Assembly (NCBI GenBank): GCA_905221615.1
Contig: CAJNDT010001236.1
Coordinates: forward strand, 987,670 to 1,051,669
Reading direction: 5' to 3'
Length of the DNA stretch: 64,000 bases
From: Symbiodinium sp. CCMP2592
Lineage: Eukaryota > Sar > Dinophyceae > Suessiales > Symbiodiniaceae
Position 1 is the stretch's first letter. Each line of letters opens with the position of its first letter. The notes under the pieces were generated by a model that saw only the letters and a list, made by a program, of their open reading frames with translations, searched no databases and had not been told where the DNA came from. This document shows, one piece after another, positions 11,529 through 60,140 of the stretch. Position numbers and translations under genes: made by a program.

Positions 11529-13520
11529 ATGATCAGCTACTCGGTGCTTCTTACCGGACTAGTACTTGGAGGATCATGGGACTTAGTAAGTAGGGCTCCT
11601 TAAATGGATCTAAATATAGGGTTCCTTAAAGGGATCTATAGGGCTTATAAGCTTTATTAGGGTTTACTTGGAGGGTCATGGGACTTGGTAAGCAGGGTTA
11701 TAAGTACCCTAATTGGGGATATAAGTAATTATAAGTATAGTTACCTCAATTATAACCTGGGGTACTAAGTCCCAGGACCCTTTAAGTAACCCTTGGCCTG
11801 GGTGTACCACTCGCAGGAGCCGAATGCATCGACTGCGCTTCGCACGAGGAGACGGTGCTGTTGCAGCGCATGAAGTCTTCGGAAGATCACACTGCACCTT
11901 TGTCATAGTTGGGTAACATTTTACATGTTTATGGGTATCTAAACCAATAAGGAATAAACATGTTCATTTTTAATCCAATCCCAACAATGAACTAGGCACT
12001 GGAAGCCGACGAGTGGAGGTGGCAAAAGCATGGCTACCCCAAGTGGAACTGCGAAGATGATGTTCGTGCAGCGCAGCAGGACTGGAGGGGAGCCATCCTC
12101 GACATCTCCGCCGCATACCTCGAGAATCTAGCCGGGTTTTTGGGGTTCAGTGGTTCTGAATAGGTAACCTTTAAGCTTTTGGGGTTTATAGAATCCAATT
12201 GAAAAGGTTAACCTCTTCTGGGCTAGGGTGCTCAGCCCCTGAAGGTTTATGTAGGGCTCCTTTAAGGGATCCTTTAAAGGCTCCCTCAAGAGGGGTTGAG
12301 GGTTTAGGGGCTTGGGGCTAAATTTCTAGGTTCCCGAGCAGTACCGTACCCTTTTGCCGCTTGCTTTTTGGGCTCCCTTCTTGAAACCATATAGTACGCA
12401 AACAGGGTGCCCTCACTATGAAGGGGCTACTGGGGAACCCAGGAATACTTCCAGTGGAGACTTTGTGACCGTGGCGAGTGATGCCATCGAAATGCTTTAC
12501 GGCTATGACATTGGGCCGGTGACCTTCAAGCCGACCCTGGCCGAGGAGGAGCCCTTCCGCCCCACTTTCGATGGTGCCTTGTCATACTTCGTTGGATACG
12601 ACGCCATGCAGGCCTTCAACGGCGGAGGCGGCATCCCGGAAGATAAAGGCTTTGCCATTAATGGTGGTGATGCGTGGTCAAAGGTCTTGTTTTTCAATGA
12701 CCAGATCAGCTGTGTGGGGGATGTTGCGCTTGCCCAAGGGTACTACTACTTCAAGAATGCAACCTCCGGGGTGGAGACAGGCGTGGAGTACACCTTCGCG
12801 TACAAGAAGATGCCGGGAGGTGAGTTGAAGATCGTCGCCCACCACTCATCCCTGCCGGCTCCGCTGCCTGATCCAACTCCCACTTCGCCTCCTGCCCTTG
12901 ATGGGGGCGATTTTATCCAGGAAGGCCAGACAGGGCATGTGGGCATTAAAGCACGTGCTTGGCCGATGAAGCCAGTTTGGTGGCGTGGCCGCGGCTTCAA
13001 AAGGAGTTACAGCGGCCCCAGCTGCGAGGATCGTGTTGCGGCAGCTCAAGAAGAATGGAAGGATGCGATCCTGAGCATCTCTGCCGCGTATGAGCAGGGC
13101 GGGACTAATTCAAGCTATGAGCAGATCGCAGTGGATGCAATCAGCAAGCTCTACAATTACGGCAAGTCCAAGGTGTTATTTAAGCCGACCCTCGCGATAG
13201 AGGATCCCTTCCGCGAGACATTCTCCGGTGCCGCATCTTACTTCCTCGGCTACAACGCCACGGAGGAGCAAGGAGGCTTCCCTGAAGACAAAGGCTTCGC
13301 CATCAATGGCGGAAAGACTTGGTCGGCCGTCAGATTTGTGAACAATCAGACCACCTGTGTGGGGGATGTCGCGCTAGCACAGGGCTACTACTTCTTCACC
13401 GACGCAGTCACCGAGAACGAAACCGGGGTCGAGTATACCTTTGCCTACGAGAAGAGGAAGACAGGGGAGTTGAAGATCATTGCCCACCACTCCTCCTTGC
13501 CGGCATCTTATGGTCGATGA
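11529..13520 (+). CDS. Secreted tandem SnoaL/NTF2-like protein, copy 1 (four exons)
   Basis: I start the gene at the ATG of the signal peptide (MISYSVLLTGLV), by alignment to the uninterrupted paralogue at 43420. Predicted exons are 11529-11562, 11787-11893, 11996-12123 and 12443-13520, giving 448 residues and a TGA stop. The signal peptide ends near an Ala-Gly-Ala. A CIDC and a TVLLQ segment follow, then two homologous domains of about 160 residues. Each domain has FKPT, YF(V/L)GY, EDKGFAI, GDVALAQGYY, VEYTFAY and HHSSLP motifs, typical of a SnoaL-like family in the NTF2 fold; the function is unknown. The three coding interruptions are mobile-element-like. The long open frame from 12354 begins inside the third one, so its first 30 residues are not native. 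Introns 2 and 3 fit GC-AG and GA-AG borders followed by G. Intron 1 has no standard borders, so splicing there needs RNA evidence. Confidence 0.8.
11565..11786. mobile_element. Family A element inside the signal-peptide exon (intron 1, copy 1)
   Basis: A 222-bp insertion is flanked by TA (11563-11564 and 11787-11788). The paralogue at 43420 has the uninterrupted CTAGTAACCC. The ends are CTTGGAGGATCATGGGACTT and the inverse AAGTCCCAGGACCCTTTAAG. A second left end (ACTTGGAGGGTCATGGGACT, about 11669) lies inside, so the element is a composite. Removing one TA plus the element restores the signal peptide frame. The implied borders TA...AG or GT...AA are not standard, and a GTAAGT inside the left end (11586) is an alternative donor. 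Confidence 0.85.
11894..11995. mobile_element. Introner-like insertion with GC-AG borders (intron 2, copy 1)
   Basis: A 102-bp insertion is flanked by GCAC repeats (11894-11897 and 11996-11999). The paralogue reads straight through (CACTGCACTGGGAGCC). Excision as GC...AG followed by G restores the frame exactly. The ends are weakly inverted (CATAGTTGGG and CCCAACAATG), and AACATGTTTAT/ATAAACATGTT forms an inner inverted pair. GC donors and AG followed by G are known dinoflagellate intron features. Confidence 0.85.
12124..12442. mobile_element. Introner-like insertion with GA-AG borders (intron 3, copy 1)
   Basis: A 319-bp insertion lies between GAAT repeats (12124-12127 and 12443-12446). Removing it as GA...AG followed by G joins Leu-Glu to Asn-Thr-Ser-Ser, matching Arg-Glu-Asn-Thr-Ser-Ser of the fourth copy. 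Inside, GGTAACCTTT and AAAGGTTAACC (about 12163-12212) form an inverted pair that recurs in the unit 2 private insert near 24318-24380. A segment with GAGCAGTACCGTACCCTTTT resembles sequence at about 1030 and 47090. It is probably a nest of smaller elements. Confidence 0.82.
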
Positions 13521-25221: not shown

Positions 25222-27213
25222 ATGATCAGCTACTCGGTGCTTCTTACCGGACTAGTACTTGGAGGATCATGGGACTTAGTAAGTAGGGCTCCTTAAATGG
25301 ATCTAAATATAGGGTTCCTTAAAGGGATCTATAGGGCTTATAAGCTTTATTAGGGTTTACTTGGAGGGTCATGGGACTTGGTAAGCAGGGTTATAAGTAC
25401 CCTAATTGGGGATATAAGTAATTATAAGTATAGTTACCTCAATTATAACCTGGGGTACTAAGTCCCAGGACCCTTTAAGTAACCCTTGGCCTGGGTGTAC
25501 CACTCGCAGGAGCCGAATGCATCGACTGCGCTTCGCACGAGGAGACGGTGCTGTTGCAGCGCATGAAGTCTTCGGAAGATCACACTGCACCTTTGTCATA
25601 GTTGGGTAACATTTTACATGTTTATGGGTATCTAAACCAATAAGGAATAAACATGTTCATTTTTAATCCAATCCCAACAATGAACTAGGCACTGGAAGCC
25701 GACGAGTGGAGGTGGCAAAAGCATGGCTACCCCAAGTGGAACTGCGAAGATGATGTTCGTGCAGCGCAACAGGACTGGAGGGGAGCCATCCTCGACATCT
25801 CCGCCGCATACCTCGAGAATCTAGCCAGGTTTTTGGGGTTCAGTGGTTCTGAATAGGTAACCTTTAAGCTTTTGGGGTTTATAGAATCCAATTGAAAAAG
25901 TTAACCTCTTCTGGGCTAGGGTGCTCAGCCCCTGAAGGTTTATGTAGGGCTCCTTTAAGGGATCCTTTAAAGGCTCCCTCAAGAGGGGTTGAGGGTTTAG
26001 GGGCTTGGGGCTAAATTTCTAGGTTCCCGAGCAGTACCGTACCCTTTTGCCGCTTGCTTTTTGGGCTCCCTTCTTGAAACCATATAGTACGCAAACAGGG
26101 TGCCCTCACTATGAAGGGGCTACTGGGGAACCCAGGAATACTTCCAGTGGAGACTTTGTGACCGTGGCGAGTGATGCCATCGAAATGCTTTACGGCTATG
26201 ACATTGGGCCGGTGACCTTCAAGCCGACCCTGGCCGAGGAGGAGCCCTTCCGCCCCACTTTCGATGGTGCCTTGTCATACTTCGTTGGATACGACGCCAT
26301 GCAGGCCTTCAACGGCGGAGGCGGCATCCCGGAAGATAAAGGCTTTGCCATTAATGGTGGTGATGCGTGGTCAAAGGTCTTGTTTTTCAATGACCAGATC
26401 AGCTGCGTGGGGGATGTTGCGCTTGCCCAAGGGTACTACTACTTCAAGAATGCAACCTCCGGGGTGGAGACAGGCGTGGAGTACACCTTCGCGTACAAGA
26501 AGATGCCGGGAGGTGAGTTGAAGATCGTCGCCCACCACTCATCCCTGCCGGCTCCGCTGCCTGATCCAACTCCCACTTCGCCTCCTGCCCTTGATGGGGG
26601 CGATTTTATCCAGGAAGGCCAGACAGGGCATGTGGGCATTAAAGCACGTGCTTGGCCGATGAAGCCAGTTTGGTGGCGTGGCCGCGGCTTCAAAAGGAGT
26701 TACAGCGGCCCCAGCTGCGAGGATCGTGTTGCGGCAGCTCAAGAAGAATGGAAGGATGCGATCCTGAGCATCTCTGCCGCGTATGAGCAGGGCGGGACTA
26801 ATTCAAGCTATGAGCAGATCGCAGTGGATGCAATCAGCAAGCTCTACAATTACGGCAAGTCCAAGGTGTTATTTAAGCCGACCCTCGCGATAGAGGATCC
26901 CTTCCGCGAGACATTCTCCGGTGCCGCATCTTACTTCCTCGGCTACAACGCCACGGAGGAGCAAGGAGGCTTCCCTGAAGACAAAGGCTTCGCCATCAAT
27001 GGCGGAAAGACTTGGTCGGCCGTCAGATTTGTGAACAATCAGACCACCTGTGTGGGGGATGTCGCGCTAGCACAGGGCTACTACTTCTTCACCGACGCAG
27101 TCACCGAGAACGAAACCGGGGTCGAGTATACCTTTGCCTACGAGAAGAGGAAGACAGGGGAGTTGAAGATCATTGCCCACCACTCCTCCTTGCCGGCATC
27201 TTATGGTCGATGA
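25222..27213 (+). CDS. Secreted tandem SnoaL/NTF2-like protein, copy 2 (four exons)
   Basis: This gene has the same structure as copy 1, shifted by 13693 bases. Exons are 25222-25255, 25480-25586, 25689-25816 and 26136-27213, and the predicted protein is 448 residues. The 358 residues encoded by exon 4 are identical to copies 1 and 3, although silent changes exist (for example AGCTGCGTGGGG here against AGCTGTGTGGGG in copy 1). The signal peptide, the CIDC and TVLLQ segments and both NTF2-like domains are intact. Flanking non-coding DNA differs more than the coding part, which suggests selection or gene conversion on the coding region. The catalytic role, if any, is unknown. Confidence 0.8.
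25258..25479. mobile_element. Family A element, intron 1 of copy 2
   Basis: This is the counterpart of 11565-11786 at the same site, with the same TA flanks and the same internal second left end. The insertion therefore predates the triplication of the segment. Confidence 0.83.
25587..25688. mobile_element. GC-AG introner-like insertion, intron 2 of copy 2
   Basis: This is the counterpart of 11894-11995 with the same GCAC flanking repeats and border bases. Confidence 0.83.
25817..26135. mobile_element. GA-AG introner-like insertion, intron 3 of copy 2
   Basis: This is the counterpart of 12124-12442, with GAAT on both sides and the same borders. Confidence 0.8.
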
Positions 27214-38042: not shown

Positions 38043-40034
38043 ATGATCAGCTACTCGGTGCTTCTTACCGGACTAGTACTTGGAGGATCATGGGACTTAG
38101 TAAGTAGGGCTCCTTAAATGGATCTAAATATAGGGTTCCTTAAAAGGATCTATAGGGCATATAAGCTTTATTAGGGTTTACTTGGAGGGTCATGGGACTT
38201 GGTAAGCAGGGTTATAAGTACCCTAATTGGGGATATAAGTAATTATAAGTATAGTTACCTCAATTATAACCTGGGGTACTAAGTCCCAGGACCCTTTAAG
38301 TAACCCTTGGCCTGGGTGTACCACTCGCAGGAGCCGAATGCATCGACTGTGCTTCGCACGAGGAGACGGTGCTGTTGCAGCGCATGAAGTCTTCGGAAGA
38401 TCACACTGCACCTTTGTCATAGTTGGGTAACATTTTACATGTTTATGGGTATCTAAACCAATAAGGAATAAACATGTTCATTTTTAATCCAATCCCAACA
38501 ATGAACTAGGCACTGGAAGCCGACGAGTGGAGGTGGCAAAAGCATGGCTACCCCAAGTGGAACTGCGAAGATGATGTTCGTGCAGCGCAGCAGGACTGGA
38601 GGGGAGCCATCCTCGACATCTCCGCCGCATACCTCGAGAATCTAGCCGGGTTTTTGGGGTTCAGTGGTTCTGAATAGGTAACCTTTAAGCTTTTGGGGTT
38701 TATAGAATCCGATTGACAAGGTTAACCTCTTCTGGGCTAGGGTGCTCAGCCCCTGAAGGTTTATGTAGGGCTCCTTTAAGGGATCCTTTAAAGGCTCCCT
38801 CAAGAGGGGTTGAGGGTTTAGGGGCTTGGGGCTAAATTTCTAGGTTCCCGAGCAGTACCGTACCCTTTTGCCGCTTGCTTTTTGGGCTCCCTTCTTGAAA
38901 CCATATAGTACGCAAACAGGGTGCCCTCACTATGAAGGGGCTACTGGGGAACCCAGGAATACTTCCAGTGGAGACTTTGTGACCGTGGCGAGTGATGCCA
39001 TCGAAATGCTTTACGGCTACGACATTGGGCCGGTGACCTTCAAGCCGACCCTGGCCGAAGAGGAGCCCTTCCGCCCCACTTTCGATGGTGCGTTGTCATA
39101 CTTCGTTGGATACGACGCCATGCAGGCCTTCAACGGCGGAGGCGGCATCCCGGAAGATAAAGGCTTTGCCATTAATGGTGGTGATGCGTGGTCAAAGGTC
39201 TTGTTTTTCAATGACCAGATCAGCTGCGTGGGGGATGTTGCGCTTGCCCAAGGGTACTACTACTTCAAGAATGCAACCTCCGGGGTGGAGACAGGCGTGG
39301 AGTACACCTTCGCGTACAAGAAGATGCCGGGAGGTGAGTTGAAGATCGTCGCCCACCACTCATCCCTGCCGGCTCCGCTGCCTGATCCAACTCCCACTTC
39401 GCCTCCTGCCCTTGATGGGGGCGATTTTATCCAGGAAGGCCAGACAGGGCATGTGGGCATTAAAGCACGTGCTTGGCCGATGAAGCCAGTTTGGTGGCGT
39501 GGCCGCGGCTTCAAAAGGAGTTACAGCGGCCCCAGCTGCGAGGATCGTGTTGCGGCAGCTCAAGAAGAATGGAAGGATGCGATCCTGAGCATCTCTGCCG
39601 CGTATGAGCAGGGCGGGACTAATTCAAGCTATGAGCAGATCGCAGTGGATGCAATCAGCAAGCTCTACAATTACGGCAAGTCCAAGGTGTTATTTAAGCC
39701 GACCCTCGCGATAGAGGATCCCTTCCGCGAGACATTCTCCGGTGCCGCATCTTACTTCCTCGGCTACAACGCCACGGAGGAGCAAGGAGGCTTCCCTGAA
39801 GACAAAGGCTTCGCCATCAATGGCGGAAAGACTTGGTCGGCCGTCAGATTTGTGAACAATCAGACCACCTGTGTGGGGGATGTCGCGCTAGCACAGGGCT
39901 ACTACTTCTTCACCGACGCAGTCACCGAGAACGAAACCGGGGTCGAGTATACCTTTGCCTACGAGAAGAGGAAGACAGGGGAGTTGAAGATCATTGCCCA
40001 CCACTCCTCCTTGCCGGCATCTTATGGTCGATGA
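38043..40034 (+). CDS. Secreted tandem SnoaL/NTF2-like protein, copy 3 (four exons)
   Basis: This gene has the same structure as copies 1 and 2. Exons are 38043-38076, 38301-38407, 38510-38637 and 38957-40034, and the predicted protein is 448 residues. Exon 4 translates identically to the other two copies despite silent differences (for example GGCTACGACATT and GCCGAAGAGGAG, which match the fourth copy rather than copies 1-2). That pattern suggests past gene conversion or retained ancestral states. The two NTF2-like domains show all motifs described for copy 1. The biological role is not known. Confidence 0.8.
38079..38300. mobile_element. Family A element, intron 1 of copy 3
   Basis: This is the counterpart of 11565-11786, with a few base changes (AAAAGGATCTATAGGGCATA inside), flanked by TA. 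Confidence 0.83.
38408..38509. mobile_element. GC-AG introner-like insertion, intron 2 of copy 3
   Basis: This is the counterpart of 11894-11995 with identical borders and GCAC repeats. Confidence 0.83.
38638..38956. mobile_element. GA-AG introner-like insertion, intron 3 of copy 3
   Basis: This is the counterpart of 12124-12442 with GAAT repeats and the same borders. It carries small changes near the inner GGTTAACC. Confidence 0.8.
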
Positions 40035-41900
40035 ACGTATGCCGCGCCCTAGACACCCTAAACCTATGTCAGCGGTTTTTGCCCAATGATGCTCAGCTTG
40101 AAGGGTAATGCAGGATTTATAGCATCCTCCGCAGTTTAGGGCGTTTAGTGGTCAGAATTTCCTTGTGTACTTGTTGTTTCCCGGGGCACTCTTCTCCGCA
40201 CGGATTCGTTTTGTAGTGGGCACTCCGTTGGGCACTCCCTTGCGCAACATCTTTCTCATAGAGTGGCGCACTCACTTCTGTGGACAACTATACGTTTGTG
40301 TTAGCGAGGTTTGTGCCAGGTGAACCAAAGCCCCATGCAGCTGTTCTTTGGCACAGCGGAAAAGCCCACCCCAATCCGCGGCAAAGCCGCAATTTTGCCA
40401 CAAGTGGCTGTCTCAGCTGATTGCTAGTATCCAGCCACAAATGGCACTTTATAGTAAGCAGCAATTACTGCTGTTTTGCGCCACGATTGGAGCACAGAGG
40501 GGTGTCAGAAGTAACATCAAAAAACAGTGTTGCAAGTGCACGGGCATGCGGGCTTGCTGTCTTACCGCGACACATCCTGAAGGCAGTATACATGGCATGC
40601 CAGCATTTTGGAGTATTCGCACCTGCTAGGCTCTGCAAGGGATCATACAAGCAGGCCAGCAGCCCAACAAGAAGAAACGCTGGTTCGACATTCTTCGACT
40701 CTTCGACGAGCAACGTACGCAAGACACGGCTTAAACCACGGACAACGGGCCGTTGAGTGCAGCCCCTTATGCTGCGAGCACCCCCCGGGCCGGTCCCAGC
40801 ACTGTTAAGTCCCCTTGGCAATATTTCGGAAATTTTGGAAATTTTGGAACTTCTGGAATTGATTTTCAATGGGCTGATTGTGACCCTTCGGATGACAGAC
40901 CATGCACTATGACTCACTTGCAAAGGCAAGGTCTGTTTAGACGATTGTCAGTGTTTATATATATACTTAAAAAAATGGTACTCCTACGAATACTATTACC
41001 AATACAAATACTGACATTGATCATTTGCTGACTGCCCAAGCTAATACCAGCATTAACACGAATATTCACACTTTTTTAAGCCAATACGAATAGGCACCAT
41101 ACAAATACTAATAATGATTAATGCTGACGTTCATACTCCTACGCATATCAATAATTATGCCCATATCGGTAGTAGTGTATCTCAATACCAATACTAGTAC
41201 ACACCTGCATATACCAATGTACATAAATATACATACCACTATACTAAAGTACAAATACATTAGCTCATGCATGTATTTATCTGTTAGTATTTTCATGTAA
41301 TCAGGAGTAATACTAATATAAGACAAACGTTCATGCGAATACATAACTTCATTTTAATACTAGCACTAGCACTAGCACTATTACTAATACCAATCACACT
41401 GTTTATACCAACACCAAGATTTACATAAGTATTGATACTCCTACGGATACTACTGCGTATACTCTTATGCTGTTAACAGCAATGCTGTCACCAATACTAA
41501 TACTGACATTGATAACTTGTTGAATATCAAGATAATGCCAGTATTAATACCATTATTAACACTTATACTAAGGCTAATGCGACTATGGATAATCCTAATA
41601 CGAATATTGACATTAATACTCCTACGAATACCAATAGTCATATTCATATTGATGTGACGACTAATACCATTACAAAAGACACGTGCATATGCTAATGCAC
41701 ACCAGAACAAATACCATTATCTTAAAATGCCGATATGTATCAATGCATTCATGTACTGATGTTTTAGGACAAGCATATACCCATATACCAATGTAACAAT
41801 ACACTACTTGTTAATGTGTGAATATACTATACAAGTATGTTATTATACTAGTATGCTACTATACTAGTATACGACTACTGTAATATGCAAGTATACCGAC

Positions 41901-43100
41901 AGTGGCCCTATTTTATAGACTGTTACTGTATGGGGGCCGTACCCAAAGTATCCCCCACAACAATACCCAGGACCCTTTGGGATTTAGAGGTTCTTAAAGA
42001 CCGCCAGGCCATGCTAACTCTGTTTTTTTGCAGCAGCGCCTGCTGGCGCAGCTTGAGTGCTTCCTTTTCATGGTTCTGGCTGTGGTGAGAAGAAGTGTTG
42101 CTGTTGCATTAGCTACGAGAAGCGAGGAATCAAGGCTACAGCTACCTGGTGCCTCACATCTGATATCATTTTCCCATGAATGCCTCTGAACCATAGAGCA
42201 AGTGTGAAACCCAATAGCCCTACGCCCTTGAGCGAAAAGTTTGAGAACCCCCCCGGCCCCAAGCCAACACACACACACGCACACACAGCTGAACCATTGA
42301 GTTTTTTTCATTGGGTAATTGCCCATCATAGGACCGTCTACCATTCGCCATTCTACAGACACCTACACCGTAAACCTAAAGTTTAAGCCCTAAGCCCCAT
42401 AAACCTCAAGTGTTAAACACGAAGCGCTAACGCCCTAGAACCTAAACCCCATGTTCATATAGAACCTTGAGCTTTCCGTTCATGTTCCGCAAGATCGGCT
42501 CCTGATGCGAGGGGCAGCGTTCAATTGGTCTTGGGTATTCTTGGGGTTTGGGGTGTAGGGCTTCGGGTTAAGGGGTTTAGGATTTAGGGTATTTAGGGGC
42601 TATAAGGATTTAGGGTTTAGGTCTATGTGCTCATATAGGGTTTACCTTAAGCACTTACATAGGTACATAGGGGTACTTAAGGCCTGAGTATAGACTAAAT
42701 GGGTACATGGACGCTTCGGGTATTCTCGGACTTCATAGGGATAAAAGATTGATTTGTGTTTCGGGGTTAGGCGACTAGGGCCTTGCTGTCCTGTGCTGTC
42801 TGTTACAAAGCTGATGAATTTGCGATTTATTGTCGACCATGTTTCTTATGATGCTTTGAGTTGTTGTAGTGCGACGGCTTGTAGCACGAGCCAGAAAACT
42901 TGAAGGACTGCAAGCAGCAAGCACTGGCAACGCTGCAGCTTAGAAGGGCTTAGGGAACCCTCAACCGTAAACCCTAAACCCTAAACCCTGAACCCTAAAC
43001 CCTAAACCCTGAACCCTAAACCCTAAACCGTAAGCTTGAGCACTAAACTCCAAGCCAGGCAGCTCCTGCTCCAAGAGGGCGTGTGTGAGACTGAGACGAT
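41901..43100. other. Spacer between unit 3 and the fourth gene copy
   Basis: About 41930-41985 carries AAGTATCCCCCACAACAATA followed by CAGGACCCTTTGGG, shared with about 48384-48420, so it is probably another dispersed element. A good splice-acceptor look-alike, TGCTAACTCTGTTTTTTTGC ending in CAG at 42033, is followed by an open stretch of Gln/Leu/Ala codons and a GTGAGA at about 42086. A CA microsatellite lies at about 42268-42288. From about 42800 on, distant homology to the upstream flank of the unit genes begins, with a CCCTAAA run at 42965-43030. No clear gene. Confidence 0.5.
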
Positions 43101-43105
43101 GCGTG

Positions 43106-43225
43106 CTTGGAGGATCATGGGACTTAGTAAGTAGGGTTATAAGTACCTTAATTGGGGTTATAAGTAATTATAAGTACAGTTACCTTAATTATAACACTAG
43201 TTACTAGGTCCCATGACCCTTTAAG
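43106..43225. mobile_element. Family A element upstream of the fourth gene copy
   Basis: A 120-bp element has ends CTTGGAGGATCATGGGACTT and the inverse ...GGTCCCATGACCCTTTAAG. The flanks are TG on both sides; the unit 1 sequence GATGCCTGTTGCAC gives a plausible empty site. It lies about 195 bp before the start codon, while the unit genes have a family E element near the same place. Confidence 0.82.
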
Positions 43226-43419
43226 TGTTGCACAGAGAGCCATGGTCCAAAAAGAACAGCACCGGCCGCTCTCAACGGCACATGTTTGCATCGGAAATCC
43301 AGCGCTGATCGAGTCTGTTCTACTCCTTGGCCGCTCTGCTCAAGTTAAGACAGTCCCGAAGCCAGAAGCACCCGCCTTCGATTGGGGTTCGCTCCCGCTA
43401 CGGACACCCCAAGCTTGCA

Positions 43420-44850
43420 ATGATCAGCTACGCGGTGCTTCTGACTGGGCTAGTAACCCTTGGTCTTGGTGTACCACTCGCAGGAGCCGAATGTATTGAC
43501 TGCGATTCGCACGAGGAGACGGTGCTGTTGCAACGCATGAAGTCTTCGGAAGATCACACTGCACTGGGAGCCGACGAGTGGAGGTGGCAAAAGCATGGCT
43601 ACCCCAAGTGGAACTGCGAAGATGATGTTCGTGCAGCGCAGCAGGACTGGAGGGGAGCCATCCTCGACATCTCCGCGGCATACCGGGAGAATACTTCCAG
43701 TGGAGAATTTGTGACCGTGGCGATTGATGCCATCGAAAACCTCTACGGCTACGACATTGGGCCGGTGACCTTCAAGCCGACCCTGGCCGAAGAGGAGCCC
43801 TTCCGCCCCACTTTTGATGGTGCATTGTCATACTTCGTTGGATACGACGCCATGCAGGCCTTCAACGGCGGTGGCGGCATCCCGGAAGATAAAGGCTTTG
43901 CCATTGCAGGTGGTGATACGTGGTCAAAGGTCTTGTTCTTCAATGACCAGATCAGCTGCGTGGGGGATGTTGCGCTTGCCCAAGGGTACTACTACTTCAA
44001 GAATGCAACCTCCGGAGTGGAGACAGGCGTGGAGTACACCTTCGCGTACAAGAAGATGTGGGAAGGTGAGTTGAAGATCGTCGCCCACCACTCTTCACTG
44101 CCGGCTCCACTGCCAGATCCAACTCCCACTTCGCCAGCCCCGGCCCCTGCCCCTGCCGACCCCGTTCAGGTGACCGCTCCCTCCGGCCCTGAACTGTCGG
44201 GCACTGGCCCCTCCCCGGCCCCCGATTTGATCCAGGAAGGCCAGACAGGAGCTGCAAGCATCAAAGCACGTGCTTGGCCGATGAAGCCTTGGCCCATGAA
44301 GCCAGTTTGGTGGCGTGGCCGCGGCTTCAAAAGGAGTTACAGCGGCCCCAGCTGCGAGGATCGTGTTGCGGCAGCTCAAGAAGAATGGAAGGATGCGATC
44401 CTGAGCATCTCTGCCGCGTATCAGCAGGGCGGGACTAACTCAAGCTATGAGCAGATCGCAGTGGATGCAATCAGCAAGCTCTACAATTACGGCGAGTCCA
44501 AGGTGTTATTTAAGCCGACCCTCGCGATAGAGGATCCCTTCCGCGAGACATTCTCCGGTGCCGCATCTTACTTCCTCGGCTACAACGCCACGGAGGAGCA
44601 AGGAGGCTTCCCTGAAGACAAAGGCTTTGCTATCAATGCCGGTAAGACTTGGTCGGCGGTTGAGTTTGTGAACAATCAGACCACCTGTGTGGGGGATGTC
44701 GCGCTGGCACAGGGCTACTACTTCTTCACCGACAACGTCACCGGGAACGAAACCGGGGTCGAGTATACCTTTGCCTACGAGAAGAAGAAGACAGGGGAGT
44801 TGAAGATCATCGCCCACCACTCCTCCTTGCCGGCATCTTATGGTCGATGA
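43420..44850 (+). CDS. Secreted tandem SnoaL/NTF2-like protein, copy 4 (uninterrupted, 476 aa)
   Basis: A single open frame extends upstream to 43327, but I choose the ATG at 43420 because it starts a clean signal peptide (MISYAVLLTGLVTLGLG, then small residues to Ala-Gly-Ala) and matches copies 1-3. The mature part has CIDC and TVLLQ segments. NTF2-like domain 1 spans residues about 65-226, followed by a Pro/Ala-rich linker (about 227-310, longer than in copies 1-3) and domain 2 (about 311-476). Both domains share FKPTLA, FR.TF.GA.SYF.GY, EDKGFAI, GDVALAQGYY, VEYTFAY and AHHSSLP. These match a SnoaL-like family found in bacteria and algae, with no assigned reaction here. None of the three insertions of copies 1-3 is present. 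Homology to the units continues upstream and downstream of the gene, so this is a genomic duplicate and not simply a processed retrocopy. Confidence 0.88.
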   Translation: MISYAVLLTGLVTLGLGVPLAGAECIDCDSHEETVLLQRMKSSEDHTALGADEWRWQKHGYPKWNCEDDVRAAQQDWRGAILDISAAYRENTSSGEFVTVAIDAIENLYGYDIGPVTFKPTLAEEEPFRPTFDGALSYFVGYDAMQAFNGGGGIPEDKGFAIAGGDTWSKVLFFNDQISCVGDVALAQGYYYFKNATSGVETGVEYTFAYKKMWEGELKIVAHHSSLPAPLPDPTPTSPAPAPAPADPVQVTAPSGPELSGTGPSPAPDLIQEGQTGAASIKARAWPMKPWPMKPVWWRGRGFKRSYSGPSCEDRVAAAQEEWKDAILSISAAYQQGGTNSSYEQIAVDAISKLYNYGESKVLFKPTLAIEDPFRETFSGAASYFLGYNATEEQGGFPEDKGFAINAGKTWSAVEFVNNQTTCVGDVALAQGYYFFTDNVTGNETGVEYTFAYEKKKTGELKIIAHHSSLPASYGR

Positions 44851-45900
44851 ACGTACGCCCCGCCCTAGACGCCCTAAACCTATGTCAGCGGTTTTTGCCC
44901 AATGATGCTCAGCTTGAAGAGCTTGGAGTGATTGAGGAAAGGCCATGTGGCCTCCTGCGCATGAGGTGTAACTTTTGATGACATAAATCCTGCATATTCT
45001 TAAGGACCCTAAACCATGGGAATTATGGCATATTCCTTGTTATGGGAATGCAGGATTTATATCATCCTTCGAAGTTTAGGGGCGTTTAGTGGTCAGAATT
45101 TACTTGTGTACTTGTTGTTTCCCGGGGGACTCTTCTCCGCGCGGATTCGTTTTGCAGTGGGCACTCCGTTGGGCACTCCCTTGCGCAACATCTTTCTCAT
45201 AGAGTCGCGCACTCACTTCTGTGGACAACTATACGTTTGTGCTAGCGAGGTTTGTGCCAGGTGAACCAAAGCCCCATGCAGCTGTTTTTGGCACAGCGGA
45301 AAAGCCCACCCCAATCCGCGGCAAAGCCGCAATTTTGCCACAAGTGGCTGTCTCAGCTGAGTGCTTGTATCCAGCCACGAATGGCACTTTGTAAGCAGCA
45401 ATTACTGCTGATTTGCTCCACGATTAGAGCACAGAGGGGTGTCAGAAGTAACATCAAAAAAACGTGTTGCAAGTGCACGGGCATGCGGGCTTGCTGTCTT
45501 ACCGCGACACATCCTGAAGGCAGTATGCTTGGCATGCTAGCATTTCGGAGTATTCGCACCTGCTAGGCTCTGCAAGGGATCATACAAGCAGGCCAGCAGC
45601 CCAACAAGAAGAAACGCTTCTTCGACATTCTTCGACTCTTCGACGAGCACCGTACGCAAGACACGGCTTAAACCACGGACAATAGGCCGTTGAGTGCAGC
45701 CCCTTGCTGCGAGTACCCCCGAAGCCGGTCCCAGTCCCAGCACTGTCAGGTCCCCTTGGCAATGATGTTTGTTATGACCCCATACCACTAGCATGCTTGA
45801 CTCACATCACTACAGTACATACGGCTTTACTACCTGGATTGCGCGTAGTGTATGTAAATTCCCAGACCCGAACCCCCCCAAAGAAGGAGCTAGGAAGAGT
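44851..45900 (+). other. 3' flank of the fourth gene copy
   Basis: This is homologous to 13521-14290 of unit 1. A family H inverted-repeat element (about 44975-45068) is intact here, while the units retain only its right end after a deletion of roughly 130-150 bp. Homology to the units fades at about 45770. Small indels relative to the units rule out conserved coding. Confidence 0.6.
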
Positions 45901-45915
45901 TCCAGCACAGCCCTG

Positions 45916-45980
45916 GAAACCGCCTTTTTAGGATCCTAGAAACCGCCTTTTTAGGATCCTAGAAACCGCCTTTTTAGGGA
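45916..45980. repeat. 23-bp tandem repeat, three copies
   Basis: GAAACCGCCTTTTTAGGATC plus CTA is repeated at 45916, 45939 and 45962. It is short and contiguous and has no coding meaning. Confidence 0.9.
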
Positions 45981-46096
45981 TAAGGCAAGGTTTTGGGATC
46001 GCTTGCTGCGAGTAGCCATGGCGGCCCCCGAGAAGAGCGAGAATTCCTCAGCGGTAGCTTGGCTCGTGGATACTCCCAATTATGGTTTCCTTACAT

Positions 46097-46204
46097 GGGA
46101 GTTTCCGAAAATTAGGCCATAGGGGTACCTTATCGTGGGGTCCTTGTAATCAGGATCCTGCTATTTAAGGTATAATATTAGGGTCCCCTATTTTCGGAAA
46201 CTCC
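46097..46204. mobile_element. Inverted-repeat element, family E
   Basis: The ends TGGGAGTTTCCGAAAATTAG and ATTTTCGGAAACTCCTA are flanked by TACA on both sides. The interior GGATCCTGCTATTTAAGGTA matches the family E copies in the tandem units. Confidence 0.75.
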
Positions 46205-47560
46205 TATACAAGTCCTGAAAAAGGTAAGCGGTTTGGGGTTAAGGTGCGGCTTGAGGGTTTAGGGCTCAAGGTTGTAAGCTTTGTTGGCTGAGGGCTCAGG
46301 CATTGGGCCTTGGGTTTCGGGGCTTTAGGTTCCGTCAAAAGATCCTTAAAGGGTTCCTTTCAGGATTCTTCAAGGGTAAGGGTTCTCTAAAAAAGGACAG
46401 TGTATGGATTTGACATCCGGTAATGCTTCGACACGGTTTAGGGTTTAGGGTATACCTTACCCCGGAATAACCGACCTTTCCAAGGACTTGTGTAAGGAAA
46501 TCATAATAAGGAACCCTAAAGCGGTAGGTTATTCAGGGTTAAGGTAGGGTTGCCTATGCATGAACATGGGGTCTTCAGGGCTCTTTCTGTCAGCTTCATG
46601 TCGGAGATTGGGCTAGTGTTCCTTTCAGGGTTCTATGGGTTTAGGGTGTAGCAGGGTTTCAGTGTTATACGGTTGATGATATAAATCCTGCATTACCCGC
46701 AATAAGGAATATGCCATAATTCCCATAGTTTAGGGTCCTTAAGGTAATGCAGGATTTCTATCATCTTTCCGAAAAGTCATGTAACATTGGAGGGTTTAGG
46801 GTTTAGGCTAAACTTCGGGTTGCGGGGCTAGAGTTGTAAGTGCAAGACGACTGGCTAAGTTCATACTACCGCGGCAGTTACTGTGCTTCTTGCGGGTGTA
46901 CGAGCACGTGAGTACGACTCGATGGGGTCTGCCGATAGGATACTTAGAAGCTGTGAGTCCCTTCAACGAAGGATCTTCCACTTCGGAGTGGATCGAGCTA
47001 ACCCTAAGGCCCTAAGGGTCCATGCACCTAATACCCGCAACTTCAACCCATGTCCCTACGAAATACCAGTACGTAGTCTAGGTTCCTGAGTAGTACCCTT
47101 TTCCCCTTTTCTCGGGTTCCCGTGTTAAAACCAAACAGCAGGAAAAAGGGTAGCCTTCTTATAAGGACAAAAGGGCCTAGTCAGAAGCTTTCATTTTACT
47201 AGACATGTAAGTGGACCCTCAAGGTAGGCCGTGCCTGAGCCCCAAATAACCTACCTTATATAGGGAAATCAGAATAGGGAACCTTAAAAAGGAACCCCAA
47301 GGGTCCAAGTACTTGATAATCATATACTCTCCAAAATCCTAACCTACATAACTACTATCCTACAACCCTACTTATTGGCTCCTTTGGACCCTTGGGGCAA
47401 GGTTTTATAAGGTCCAGGTGTACCAGGGCCGGCTCATTCGCCGAGTTACGGAAGAGACGGTGCTTCCATGAGGTTTAGGGTTTAGGGTTTGAGGTTTAGG
47501 GTTTAGGGTGCCCGCAAGCCAGAGCATCGTCAGCCGCGATCTGAAGTTGTGAACCCTACC
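46205..47560. other. Non-coding stretch with dispersed elements
   Basis: It contains TTTAGGG runs, a family H element (about 46672-46765), a segment near 47085-47150 with AGTACCCTTTTCCCC resembling part of intron 3, and a family G element (about 47295-47397). The 68-residue frame at 46883-47089 lacks any family signature, so I do not call it a gene. Confidence 0.5.
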
Positions 47561-47561
47561 T

Positions 47562-47659
47562 GTAGTCTCCATTGCAGTTCCTTTTTGGGGGGGTTAACCA
47601 TGTTTGTGTTGGGGATCCTTTAAGGTATCCCAAAAAAAGGAACTATAATGAAGACTATT
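47562..47659. mobile_element. Family B inverted-repeat element
   Basis: The ends GTAGTCTCCATTGCAGTTCC and GGAACTATAATGAAGACTA enclose GGTTAACC...GGGATCC, as in the family B copies of the tandem units. Confidence 0.75.
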
Positions 47660-47935
47660 GGTAGCGCCCGTAAAGCAAGAGTAGACCTCAAAAGATTCAA
47701 CTTGCCTCAAACGCCTTGGGTTTTGCGTTTCTCGCCTACACGCCAGAAGGACCCGGTGGCACCAGCTGCGCCGCCTGAGGCCAAGAAGGAGGCCGTGATG
47801 GGAGAAGGGTATCCCAGAGGGTCCACCTTTACTACCATTATGGAATTAGGTCCCCAAAACCATAACAGGGATGGTCTTTCAGTGTATATGGACCCTCTGG
47901 GTATCAGGAAGACATGTGAGTAAGAGCTGCAGGCT
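47660..47935 (+). other. Possible exon fragment interrupted by an inverted-repeat element
   Basis: About 47690-47810 encodes a protein-like stretch with an Ala-Pro-Ala-Ala-Pro-Pro-Glu-Ala-Lys-Lys run. At 47812 begins an element with ends CCCAGAGGGTCCA and TGGACCCTCTGGG, flanked by GTATC on both sides. A similar Ala/Pro/Glu/Lys stretch stands at about 49830-49878, just before a family A element. These could be exons of one gene dissected by elements or two paralogous scraps. I cannot assign a function. Confidence 0.3.
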
Positions 47936-56100: not shown

Positions 56101-56109
56101 ATATTCTCA

Positions 56110-57705
56110 AAGCCTCGGGCTTTCTAGGTCAAAGCCAAGGGCCTGCAAATCCCTGGTCCCGGGCCGGACCCTGTTAATCGGGGGGGGTTTCCTGCTATTC
56201 TGGGGGGGGCGGGGCCTGCAAAGGGGTAGCCTTGGAAAACTTGACAAACCTATTCTTTTTATATACGGTTTAATTAGGGAACCACCTGTTTCTGGCAGCA
56301 GAAGATATCACCCAAATCCCAGGGATCCCAAGGCCAGGGATCTCTGACCCTTCCATCTCAAAGCTTCGGGCTTTCTAGGTCAAAGCCAAGGGCCTGCAAA
56401 TCCCTGGTCCCGGGCCGGACCCTGTTAATCGGGGGGGGTTTCCTGCTATTCTGGGGGGGGCGGGGCCTGCAAAGGGGTAGCCTTGGAAAACTTGACAAAC
56501 CTATTCTTTTTATATACGGTTTAATTAGGGAACCACCTGTTTCTGGCAGCAGAAGATATCACCCAAGGGATCCCAAGGCCAGGGATCTCTGACCCTTCCA
56601 TCTCAAAGCTTCGGGCTTTCTAGGTCAAAGCCAAGGGCCTGCAAATCCCTGGTCCCGGGCCGGACCCTGTTAATCGGGGGGGGTTTCCTGCTATTCTGGG
56701 GGGGGCGGGGCCTGCAAAGGGGTAGCCTTGGAAAACTTGACAAACCTATTCTTTTTATATACGGTTTAATTAGGGAACCACCTGTTTCTGGCAGCAGAAG
56801 ATATCACCGAAATCCCAGGGATCCAAGGCCAGGGATCTCTGACCCTTCCATCTCAAAGCTTCGGGCTTTCTAGGTCAAAGCCAAGGCCTTGCAAATCCCT
56901 GGTCCCGGGCCGGACCCTGTTAATCGGGGGGGGTTTCCTGCTATTCTGGGGGGGGGCGGGGCCTGCAAAGGGGTAGCCTCTTGACAAACCTATTCTTTTT
57001 ATATACGGTTTAATTAGGGAACCACCTGTTTCTGGCAGCAGAAGATATCACCCAAATCCCAGGGATCTCTGACCCTTCCATCTCAAAGCTTCGGGCTTTC
57101 TAGGACAAAGCCAAGGGCCTGCAAATCCCTGGTCCCGGGCCGGACCCTGTTAATCGGGGGGGGTTTCCTGCTATTCTGGGGGGGGCGGGGCCTGCAAAGG
57201 GGTAGCCTTGGAAAACTTGACAAACCTATTCTTTTTATATACGGTTTAATTAGGGAACCACCTGTTTCTGGCAGCAGAAGATATCACCCAAATCCCAGGG
57301 ATCCCAAGGCCAGGGATCTCTGACCCTTCCATCTCAAAGCTTCGGGCTTTCTAGGACAAAGCCAAGGGCCTGCAAATCCCTGGTCCCGGGCCGGACCCTG
57401 TTAATCGGGGGGGTTTCCTGCTATTCTGGGGGGGGCGGGGCCTGCAAAGGGGTAGCCTTGGAAAACTTGACAAACCTATTCTTTTTATATACGGTTTAAT
57501 TAGGGAACCACCTGTTTCTGGCAGCAGAAGATATCACCCAAATCCCAGGGATCCCAAGGCCAGGGATCTCTGACCCTTCCATCTCAAAGCTTCGGGCTTT
57601 CTAGGTCAAAGCCAAGGGCCTGCAAATCCCTGGTCCCGGGCCGGACCCTGTTAATCGGGGGGGGTTTCCTGCTATTCTGGGGGGGCTTCCTGCCTGCTAT
57701 TCTGG
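56110..57705. repeat. 250-bp tandem repeat, six full copies and a partial
   Basis: The repeat starts near CTTCGGGCTTTCTAGGTCAA at about 56113, 56364, 56609, 56859, 57089, 57340 and 57590. Each copy contains CCCGGGCCGGACCCTGTTAA, a run of eight or so G, a second G run, TTTTTATATACGGTTTAATT and GGCAGCAGAAGATATCACC. Spacing is 230-251 bp because of small deletions. The last copy ends just before a splice-acceptor-like CTTCTGCTTGTGCAG, so the array may lie in an intron between the 55061 and 57753 exons. Confidence 0.93.
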
Positions 57706-57752
57706 GCAGAGAAAAAGATAATTAATAAATTCTCTTGCTTCTGCTTGTGCAG

Positions 57753-60140
57753 GAGAAGGCAGAAAGGGAGTACTGGCGAAGCATGATGCGAATGAGGGGA
57801 GGCGGTGATGAGTCGCAGCATGAGCAGGAGCAAGAGAATGAGGAGACAGCCATAGTCCTGGACGATGAGGACAAAGCCCTCTCCCAGACTCCTGTGGCAA
57901 AGAAAGAAGCGGATGAGAGCATGAGCCCACCCACGGACCGTGTCAAGCGACAGCTGAGCTTTGGATCGGCTTCATCAGCCGAGTCCAAGCAGTCAAGGCT
58001 GCATAAGTTCTTCCGGTCTCCGTCATCCTTCTCTGACGACAGCAGCATCCATGAGACGCCCAGTCCGCCGCCCAAGAGGCCAAGACATCGCATGGAAGAC
58101 ACTCTTCGTGAGATGTTGAAGAGTGGGCAGCTGTCGCTTGATGGGAAGAAGCTGACCCTGACAGCCCATGAGGATGTCATCCCAAAGCTGCAGCAGGAGG
58201 TGGGCAAGAAGTTTGGGAAGTTCGGAGGTCGGCCCATGAAGCCGGTCAGCGAGAGGAGAGGGGTCATGGGTGGCCTGAAGTCCAACCGGAGAAAGGCAAA
58301 TGAGAAACCTCGGCAGTTTGAGTTGCCTGTGTCCATGAAGAACCGCATCTGCCAGCAAATCTATGAGACCCGTGGGCACCATCCCGCCGAGCAAGACATG
58401 CTCAAGGCCTTTGCAAAGAAGAGCAAGATGAGGTTGGACAAGGTGCAGGACATCTGGGCCAACAGGAGCACATGGGCTCAGCTCGAAAAGAAGGACCATG
58501 GCAACATGATGGGTGGGGAGCAATCCAAGCAGAAGCCAAGGATGAGAGCAGAAGGTGCTGGTGCCAAGCGACAATTCCCTCATGTCGTCCAGAAACTTGG
58601 CCATTGGCTTGACAAAGAACGAGCCCATGGTCATCAGGTGCTGCAGCGACACCTGGCATGGCAGTATGAGCTGCTCCTTCAGGAACACATGCTTGAGCTT
58701 ACGGAGCTGCTTGAGTCTGAGAAGAGTAAGGACATGAGCACAGAGGAGCGGCAGCAGCATGAGGTGAAGCTAAAGCTTGCAGAGAAGCAGATTGAGGCCA
58801 TGCATGGGAGCGAGAAAATGCTGAACAAAAGGGCAAAGACATTGGCCACATGGCTTGGGGCTGAGACGAGGGTTCCAAACCTCGTGACCCAGATAAGTTC
58901 CGTGGAGCAGCAGGTGAGGGCTGAGCTCTCGTGGCAACACCATGACTGGTGCATTCACAAGGTGGCATCAGCAGATGAGGACTTCATGAGACAGTACTTT
59001 GCCAGGCCCAATGAGATCACCCCAGCCATTAGAAAGGCATGTGTTCTGGGCTTCTCCGATCAGGTGCCACTCTGGCTGAAGTCTGGGTCCAAGAAAGAAA
59101 TCATAGCTTCATGGGAAGTAGCAGGCCTCAAGAAGAAGAAGCAGCATCCGCACCTGCATGAGCCGCAGCAGACTGCAGATGAGACAGACCCGGCAGCTGA
59201 GGAGCCTCATGAGGAGTCGAAAGCTGAGGAGCCTCATGAGGAGTCGAAAGCTGAGGAGCATCATGAGAAGCAGCCACATGAGCAGGAGGAACCAGGTGAT
59301 GAGTGGAAGCTCGCCATGCCAGATGAGAAGCATGAGATGGCCCATTTGACCACCCGTCGGCAAGAGAAGGCCGATAGGTACAGGGTCACATTTGAGGCCA
59401 TGCAGCTCGTGAGTGGCTTCTTCGACCATGAGAAGACCCCCGAAGGCCACTGCATGAGAGGCATTCTGATAGTTCCCGGCCAGCATGCACGGTTGGATAA
59501 CATTGACGAGCATGGGAAATGGAAAGAGGATGAGACATTCTTCTACATGGGTCAAGAGAAACGCCACATCAGAGGTGAGAGCTGCGGCCGAGCTCTCATC
59601 AGCTGGCGAAAGCTGCGAGATGAGATGCCACAAGCATTCCGGCATTTCTCCGTCATGAGCCAGCCTGCATCCAACAGTGATGGGATTTGCCTGCCATGGG
59701 TCATAAAGGATCAGGCTAGGCAGTTCCCATTGAGTGTGTGGATGAGGGATGCGTATGGGCCTGCATTCACATCAGATACGGTCAAGACCCTCTTCATGGG
59801 GCATCAGGTTCAATCGAGCATCATGCCTAAGATGACATCAGCATTACAGCTGACTGACACAGATTTCTCACATGCCTTTAAGGCATCAGTGAGAAGAGCC
59901 ATCGATGAGCAGAGCATGAGGCAGGCGGCTCGCCGGAATGAGGAGGATGGCCACCATGAGCAGCAGTTCCCGAAGATGGGCATCAAGGAAATGGCATTGG
60001 CCATCGACGCTGCCATGGAGCACATGATCCAGATGAATGAGAAGACGGAATGGGTCTTGGCTGGGCTCCGCCGCAATGGGTTCTTGGCCCTGAGACCTGA
60101 TGAGCATGGCAAGATGAGGAAGTGCGATCACGAGGCATGA
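57753..60140 (+). CDS. Pogo/Tigger-like DDE transposase
   Basis: The frame is open from 57735 without an ATG; CTTCTGCTTGTGCAG followed by GAG at 57753 looks like a splice acceptor, so I treat this as an internal exon (first Met codon 57783). Residue numbers below count from 57735. Order: acidic and Ser/Pro-rich N-terminus, a helix-turn-helix region (about 198-255) and a second DNA-binding-like segment with HVVQKLGHWLDKERAHGHQV (about 280-300), comparable to CENP-B/Tc5-type domains. Then comes a DDE_1-like core: FSDQVPLW (Asp442), WMRDAYGP (Asp672) and TSALQLTDTDF (Asp708, 35 residues after the second Asp). An Asp/Glu/His-rich insertion with a duplicated HEESKAEEP interrupts the core. The frame closes at TGA 60138-60140, yet continues open in the same frame afterwards. 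Family assignment comes from motif order, without a database search. Confidence 0.72.
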   Translation, partial: EKAEREYWRSMMRMRGGGDESQHEQEQENEETAIVLDDEDKALSQTPVAKKEADESMSPPTDRVKRQLSFGSASSAESKQSRLHKFFRSPSSFSDDSSIHETPSPPPKRPRHRMEDTLREMLKSGQLSLDGKKLTLTAHEDVIPKLQQEVGKKFGKFGGRPMKPVSERRGVMGGLKSNRRKANEKPRQFELPVSMKNRICQQIYETRGHHPAEQDMLKAFAKKSKMRLDKVQDIWANRSTWAQLEKKDHGNMMGGEQSKQKPRMRAEGAGAKRQFPHVVQKLGHWLDKERAHGHQVLQRHLAWQYELLLQEHMLELTELLESEKSKDMSTEERQQHEVKLKLAEKQIEAMHGSEKMLNKRAKTLATWLGAETRVPNLVTQISSVEQQVRAELSWQHHDWCIHKVASADEDFMRQYFARPNEITPAIRKACVLGFSDQVPLWLKSGSKKEIIASWEVAGLKKKKQHPHLHEPQQTADETDPAAEEPHEESKAEEPHEESKAEEHHEKQPHEQEEPGDEWKLAMPDEKHEMAHLTTRRQEKADRYRVTFEAMQLVSGFFDHEKTPEGHCMRGILIVPGQHARLDNIDEHGKWKEDETFFYMGQEKRHIRGESCGRALISWRKLRDEMPQAFRHFSVMSQPASNSDGICLPWVIKDQARQFPLSVWMRDAYGPAFTSDTVKTLFMGHQVQSSIMPKMTSALQLTDTDFSHAFKASVRRAIDEQSMRQAARRNEEDGHHEQQFPKMGIKEMALAIDAAMEHMIQMNEKTEWVLAGLRRNGFLALRPDEHGKMRKCDHEA

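Follow-up and report, generated by a model that had tools for sequence, protein, structure and literature searches.

Results

Three interrupted genes beside an uninterrupted paralogue

The window, by which we mean the whole 64,000-nucleotide stretch of DNA analysed here, spans C1236:987670-1051669 of the 1.098-Gb genome of Symbiodinium sp. CCMP2592 (S. tridacnidorum in the accessible part of PMC8045281) and reaches the end of its contig. It holds three near-identical gene units (98.7-99.2% over 4.6-5.3 kb) and a fourth, related gene:

Copy 1, 11529..13520, plus strand: four exons once all three inserts are taken out; 448-aa two-domain protein with a signal-peptide-like start
Copy 2, 25222-27213: layout as in copy 1
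Copy 3, 38043-40034: layout as in copy 1
Copy 4, 43420..44850, plus strand: 476-aa paralogue without interruption, with empty sites

The inserts and their components and relatives are as follows:

Insert 1, 11565..11786, plus strand: 222-bp element with terminal inverted repeats; TA target repeat at 11563-11564 and 11787-11788
Insert 1 in copies 2 and 3: 25258-25479 and 38079-38300
Insert 2, 11898..11995, plus strand: 98-bp element; target repeat GCAC at 11894-11897 and 11996-11999; net 102 bp
Insert 3, 12128..12442, plus strand: composite; target repeat GAAT at 12124-12127 and 12443-12446; net 319 bp
Insert 3 in copies 2 and 3: 25821-26135 and 38642-38956
Element B, 12330..12442, plus strand: outer part of insert 3, 117 bp as 12128-12131 plus 12330-12442; stand-alone elsewhere in the genome
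Secondary insertion, 12132..12329, plus strand: 198 bp within element B, with CTAG on each side
Relative of insert 1, 43106..43225, plus strand: 120 bp, repeat TG, upstream of copy 4

Excision of all three inserts yields a 448-aa protein that is identical from copies 1, 2 and 3; read unspliced from the start codon, each of the three ends at codon 25, within insert 1. The core of the original prediction, that insertions common to copies 1-3 and absent from copy 4 are bordered by direct repeats and can be removed with the frame restored, can be read directly from the sequence, with some adjustments. The predicted sizes of 102 and 319 bp are the net gains at the second and third sites, but the 222 bp given for the first is the element without its TA repeat, the net gain there being 224 bp; the visible direct repeat at this site is the 4-bp AGTA, because the element itself ends in AG. 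Three sites were interrupted, but by at least four events, insert 3 consisting of two or more nested insertions. Copy 4 lacks inserts at its sites, while a relative of insert 1 sits upstream of the gene.

The encoded protein combines a signal-peptide-like start, recognised by eye, with two related domains; it has no match in the local Pfam copy, and precomputed annotation assigns PF27546 to its relatives. When the genome was searched at the protein level, 106 matches came up, many of them in long stop-free frames. Among the 67 matches listed in a protein search, one protein named for CCMP2592 (P0002) matches copy 4, and none is a separate entry for a spliced copy 1-3. P0002 is shorter than copy 4 by 30 residues of a proline-rich linker (44080-44169), a gap that resembles a predicted GT-AG intron; the segment is open and in frame in copy 4, so that the gap may stem from faulty annotation or from an intron that is optional.

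Two further features of the window were recorded. Positions 40933-47926 overlap the end of contig C5303 at 99.87% identity over 7 kb, which may represent either unmerged contig ends or a haplotype copy; C5303 also holds a copy 4 gene, and as an overlapping contig end it was dropped as an independent witness. At 56105-57685 a 250-bp unit is repeated in tandem (6.4 copies, 94%), and the long open frame that follows it (57729-60140) has no Pfam match.

Insert 2 and its copies in other genes

The inserts are more than chance, because insert 1, insert 2 and the outer part of insert 3 each belong to a repeat family found at many loci, with ends that coincide with the family boundaries. Given length-neutral splicing, insert 2 would be a GC-AG intron at 11894-11995. 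The best 40 places of its family include three in the window, and 36 of the other 37 were read (91-95% identical); two of these 36, L047 and L049, share flanks and are not independent. Exact 4-bp repeats of varied sequence border the element at 24 of the 36 loci. Its inverted repeats are weak, with 5 of 300 shuffles equally good.

The original prediction had proposed a genome-wide search for exon copies; for this family, recognisable genes are interrupted at two of the 36 loci read, L058 and L064, and in both cases excision restores the protein across the junction. At L058 (repeat GCCT, GC-AG borders) the joined protein matches the Pfam family DAO over residues 4-138 (3.5e-12), with the junction at residue 126, and its alignment with the dimethylglycine dehydrogenase 5l46 (4e-17) also runs through the junction, showing a gap of one residue four positions after it. 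At L064 (repeat GTCT, GT-AG borders) the junction falls at residue 213, beyond the end of the Pfam match (5.2e-05), but P0069 of S. microadriaticum is identical to the joined protein at 227 of 264 residues and aligns with it at the junction without a gap; a PDB search with the joined protein gave only two unrelated matches (E 0.2 and 0.28). The 72 flanking frames of the 36 loci matched four Pfam families with one member each, and two of these, DAO and CTP_transf_like, are taken to be L058 and L064, while a third, RCC1, is L037. Because both genes are interrupted at GC-AG or GT-AG positions while their proteins run on continuously, this family would appear to make introns, and insert 2 can be regarded firmly as an introner, as predicted.

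Three further loci were not counted as exon insertions. At L037, which encodes an RCC1 protein, the frame stops just before the element. Two loci have a long open span after excision: the Pfam score of L061 lies below the curated cut-off (17.4 against 32 bits), and a flanking frame of L059 has no match. P0069 is continuous at the intron position of L064 (contig C446), and L064 would offer a second datable gain if the P0069 gene lacks the intron.

Insert 3 as a nested element

Insert 3 would, again given length-neutral splicing, be a GA-AG intron at 12124-12442. Taken as a whole it has no inverted repeats (238 of 300 shuffles were equally good). Its outer part, element B, is split in the window after CTAG by the 198-bp intruder, which ends in a second CTAG and contains a piece of a further repeat family. 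The termini of element B, assigned by eye, are CTAGGTTCCC and GGGAACCCAG, with the repeat GAAT, and stand-alone copies end at identical bases. The family occupies 37 other loci at 74-81% identity, and an exact 4-bp repeat with CT...AG ends was recognised at 7 of them.

The exon-copy search of these 37 loci returned one candidate, L149 (repeat GTGG), where, after excision, 57 open codons run on into an ankyrin frame of 232 codons (Ank_2 2.2e-69). Two frames are open on the left side, the strongest Ank match falls well downstream of the junction, and none of the 16 candidates from a search with residues 19-100 is a relative. With its junction backed by no homologue, L149 counts as a candidate for element B rather than as proof. 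The design of element B in the window, with GA-AG borders and frame neutrality, is that of an introner, though a second gene does not yet bear this out, and the prediction that insert 3 is a mobile-element intron is likely to be right on the strength of its borders, 4-bp repeat and frame neutrality, L149 being the one candidate exon copy.

Insert 1 as a TA-targeting element

We read 65 other loci of the insert 1 family. TA flanks both sides of 17 of 29 long copies and 26 of 37 short copies. The inverted repeats of insert 1 are better than those of all 300 shuffles, and its RNA is predicted to fold much more stably than shuffled sequence (z = -4.5; for insert 2, z = -1.17). If the element is removed exactly, its borders can be only TA-AG or GT-AA; 20 in-frame GT/GC/GA-AG pairs were found in the searched range, and all of them alter both the protein and the message length. 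A GT-AG intron using the G before the TA was also tried and rejected; it loses one base and then meets TAA. No exon insertion in a recognisable gene was found at the 65 loci, a small sample; none of 118 open flanking frames (63 of the 65 loci) matches Pfam at 1e-4, and neither does L024, the longest joined span. The prediction that this insert is an introner-made intron is not supported in its original form, given the TA duplication, the lack of a length-neutral GT/GC/GA-AG intron and the exon-copy search, and on these grounds insert 1 cannot be filed as an introner. Its 120-bp TA-repeat relative is present in at least 38 other copies at 95-98% identity and appears to belong to a recently active family; several copies share a few contigs (C4279, C357, C5048, C857, C33).

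Copies of the insert 2 and element B families lie in exons at 2 of 73 loci, against 0 of 65 for the insert 1 family (p = 0.50), or at 3 of 73 against 0 of 65 if L149 is counted (p = 0.25), a difference that is not significant. Of the three introners originally proposed, we would call one firm (insert 2), one likely (insert 3) and one unsupported (insert 1).

Dinoflagellate mRNAs are trans-spliced, which opens a further reading of site 1. Inserts 2 and 3 would be spliced and insert 1 would not: the spliced leader would join at an AG in or after insert 1, giving a shorter protein without signal peptide from the in-frame ATG at codon 40 (MKSSEDH). Such bypassing would agree with a family recognised in no gene at 65 loci and with an insert that has no length-neutral GN-AG pair. 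The signal-peptide codons speak against it: a single amino acid separates copies 1-3 from copy 4 there and the other changes are silent, although these differences may predate the insertion, and overall we consider this reading unlikely. Less likely still is that the TA-targeting element, whose RNA is predicted to fold into a long hairpin, is removed exactly at TA-AG or GT-AA, outside the GT/GC/GA-AG set described for Symbiodiniaceae; if it were, the unorthodox removal of introners that has been proposed for Amoebophrya would extend to Symbiodinium.

Selection on the interrupted copies

The joined coding sequences of copies 1-3 differ at six sites and all six differences are synonymous, where 23-31% would be expected without constraint (p 1.4e-4 to 8.2e-4, by transition bias). 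Four of the six fall in the last exon, with one each in exons 2 and 3, so the test informs mostly on the last exon, which is open even unspliced. Elsewhere in the units, copies 1-3 vary at 8 of 557 sites upstream and 9 of 1858 downstream, and at 2 of 224, 0 of 102 and 4 of 319 sites in inserts 1, 2 and 3. After exclusion of 6 ambiguous sites, the earlier branch leading to the triplication carries 20 nonsynonymous (N) and 19 synonymous (S) changes and that of copy 4 carries 8 N and 13 S; over 1039 N and 305 S sites the ratio for the former branch is about 0.3. Amino-acid changes are more numerous in the intron-bearing lineage (20 against 8, p = 0.036), while the N:S ratios do not differ significantly (p = 0.42). 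This faster evolution relative to copy 4 may reflect a partial loss of constraint.

Selection on the protein is nonetheless evident, and because all six later differences are synonymous the genes are probably still working, in which case the inserts must leave the mRNA. The contrary view, that the elements broke the gene, that nothing is spliced and that a dead unit was then triplicated, could appeal to the stop at codon 25 in unspliced translation, to the faster amino-acid change and to the missing ordinary splice pair of insert 1. It would then have to accommodate the six synonymous differences, joined exons that carry no frameshift or stop in any copy, a ratio near 0.3 on the earlier branch, and borders of inserts 2 and 3 that are splice-compatible and in the right phase. 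We judge it improbable that copies 1-3 are pseudogenes.

Gain rather than loss of the inserts

All three insertion sites are uninterrupted in copy 4 and, in the aligned parts read, in the paralogous genes on contigs C2057, C69 (two genes) and C367; an outgroup gene with introns at these sites had been named as one case that would overturn the original prediction, and these four genes are all empty there. Because copy 4 and all four of these paralogues lack them, the inserts are gains. The protein tree joins copy 1 with copy 4 (98/98) and places C2057 and P0003, a protein of another assembly, outside this pair; the DNA tree does not fix the order of copy 4 and C2057. Copies 1-3 stand at a synonymous divergence (dS) of 0.145-0.153 from copy 4 and of 0.007-0.017 from one another; for copy 4 and C2057 the value is 0.354. 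The tree and the empty sites together uphold the predicted order, with gain after copy 4 had split off and before the triplication.

Homology between copy 4 and copies 1-3 begins 118 bp before the ATG and continues for about 910 bp beyond the stop, and because it runs into both flanks copy 4 is not a retrocopy that lost introns, again as predicted. That the inserts are ancestral introns lost from copy 4 via reverse transcription is exceedingly unlikely: we can list no point in its favour, and the four uninterrupted paralogues, the flanking homology and the membership of the inserts in repeat families bordered by target repeats all stand against it. An assembly artefact in the tandem copies or inserts, to which the contig end and its overlap with C5303 might point, can be given hardly any weight, as coding and non-coding substitutions distinguish the copies and the accessible part of PMC8045281 describes the strain's published assembly as hybrid long-read.

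Two of the paralogues have features of their own. The gene at C367:89671-90818 (L011) carries frame-shifting deletions and is probably dead, yet retains the empty sites. In the second domain of the C2057 paralogue, on the minus strand at C2057:577644-577746 (L009:3145-3247), lies a 103-bp inverted-repeat element with the repeat GAGC; its excision restores the frame with GA-AG borders, and its 5' end is also present in L080. With its GA-AG borders it would count as an introner-like gain that arose independently within this gene family.

Discussion

The observed insertions, their repeat families, the order of gain, the restored frame and the selection on the protein provide a framework for the following scenario, which as a whole we consider probable. 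Non-autonomous DNA transposons, presumably moved by transposase supplied in trans, would have entered the coding region of the ancestor of copies 1-3 after its separation from copy 4. For inserts 2 and 3, insertion would duplicate a 4-bp target (GCAC, GAAT) whose left duplicate provides the 5' dinucleotide (GC, GA), and the terminal AG of the element would act as the 3' splice site; because the 5' site comes from the left repeat and the 3' AG from the element, putative splicing would leave the coding sequence unchanged. Insert 3 would have begun as a small intron from the 117-bp element and been enlarged later by a second element inside it. Insert 1 would be a TA-targeting element in the signal-peptide exon, and some bypass of it would be needed if the secreted protein is made. 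As the last step, the unit would have been triplicated.

From its sequence, this locus appears to be a clear, datable example of known introner activity. Intron gain is rarely visible with the before and after states of one gene side by side, and here three interrupted genes and their uninterrupted sister lie within about 34 kb, with few differences between them, in a culture-collection strain. Because of this proximity, similarity and availability, one can measure directly how newborn introns affect splicing accuracy and expression. Insert 3 adds an apparent newborn intron enlarged by nested insertion, and the locus as a whole pairs two introner-type insertions with one, insert 1, that breaks the rule.

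Comparison with known introner systems

Tc1/mariner-type MITEs have a TA target repeat and inverted repeats, and insert 1 resembles them by these features. Insert 1 also recalls the introner elements of Amoebophrya, for which the accessible text of Farhat et al. 2021 (PMC7789003) describes direct repeats at the borders, inverted repeats capable of forming hairpins and non-standard borders; the likeness lies in the direct and inverted repeats and the predicted hairpin. In contrast to those elements, as far as that text describes them, insert 1 belongs to a TA-repeat family recognised in no other gene here, and its removal from RNA is putative.

The original prediction placed introners in several protist lineages including dinoflagellate relatives, which is an understatement, as the portions of the literature accessible to us report them in Symbiodinium itself (PMC9860276) and in other dinoflagellates (PMC11453091). 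Introner elements in Symbiodiniaceae are also treated in the accessible parts of PMC11114475 and PMC10522408. The review PMC11453091, in its accessible part, gives 25-74% GC/GA-AG introns for Symbiodiniaceae and summarises the dinoflagellate introners of Roy et al. 2023 (Curr Biol), with which we compare our elements through that summary rather than by family sequences. Among the matches listed in a literature search on introners with tandem paralogues, titles and abstract openings do not name the present locus.

A close parallel is with the introners of S. microadriaticum, which according to the Fig. 2B legend of Gozashti et al. 2022 (PMC9860276) have 4-bp repeats, terminal inverted repeats and their own 3' site, with the repeat supplying the 5' site; the accessible text of the same paper includes GC and GA among the 5' sites of introner families. 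Insert 2, and insert 3 by its outer element, fit this published design, a likeness at the level of design, while the inverted repeats of insert 2 are weak and insert 1 does not fit. Relative to the S. microadriaticum introners as described there, the present locus differs in that the states before and after insertion lie adjacent to one another.
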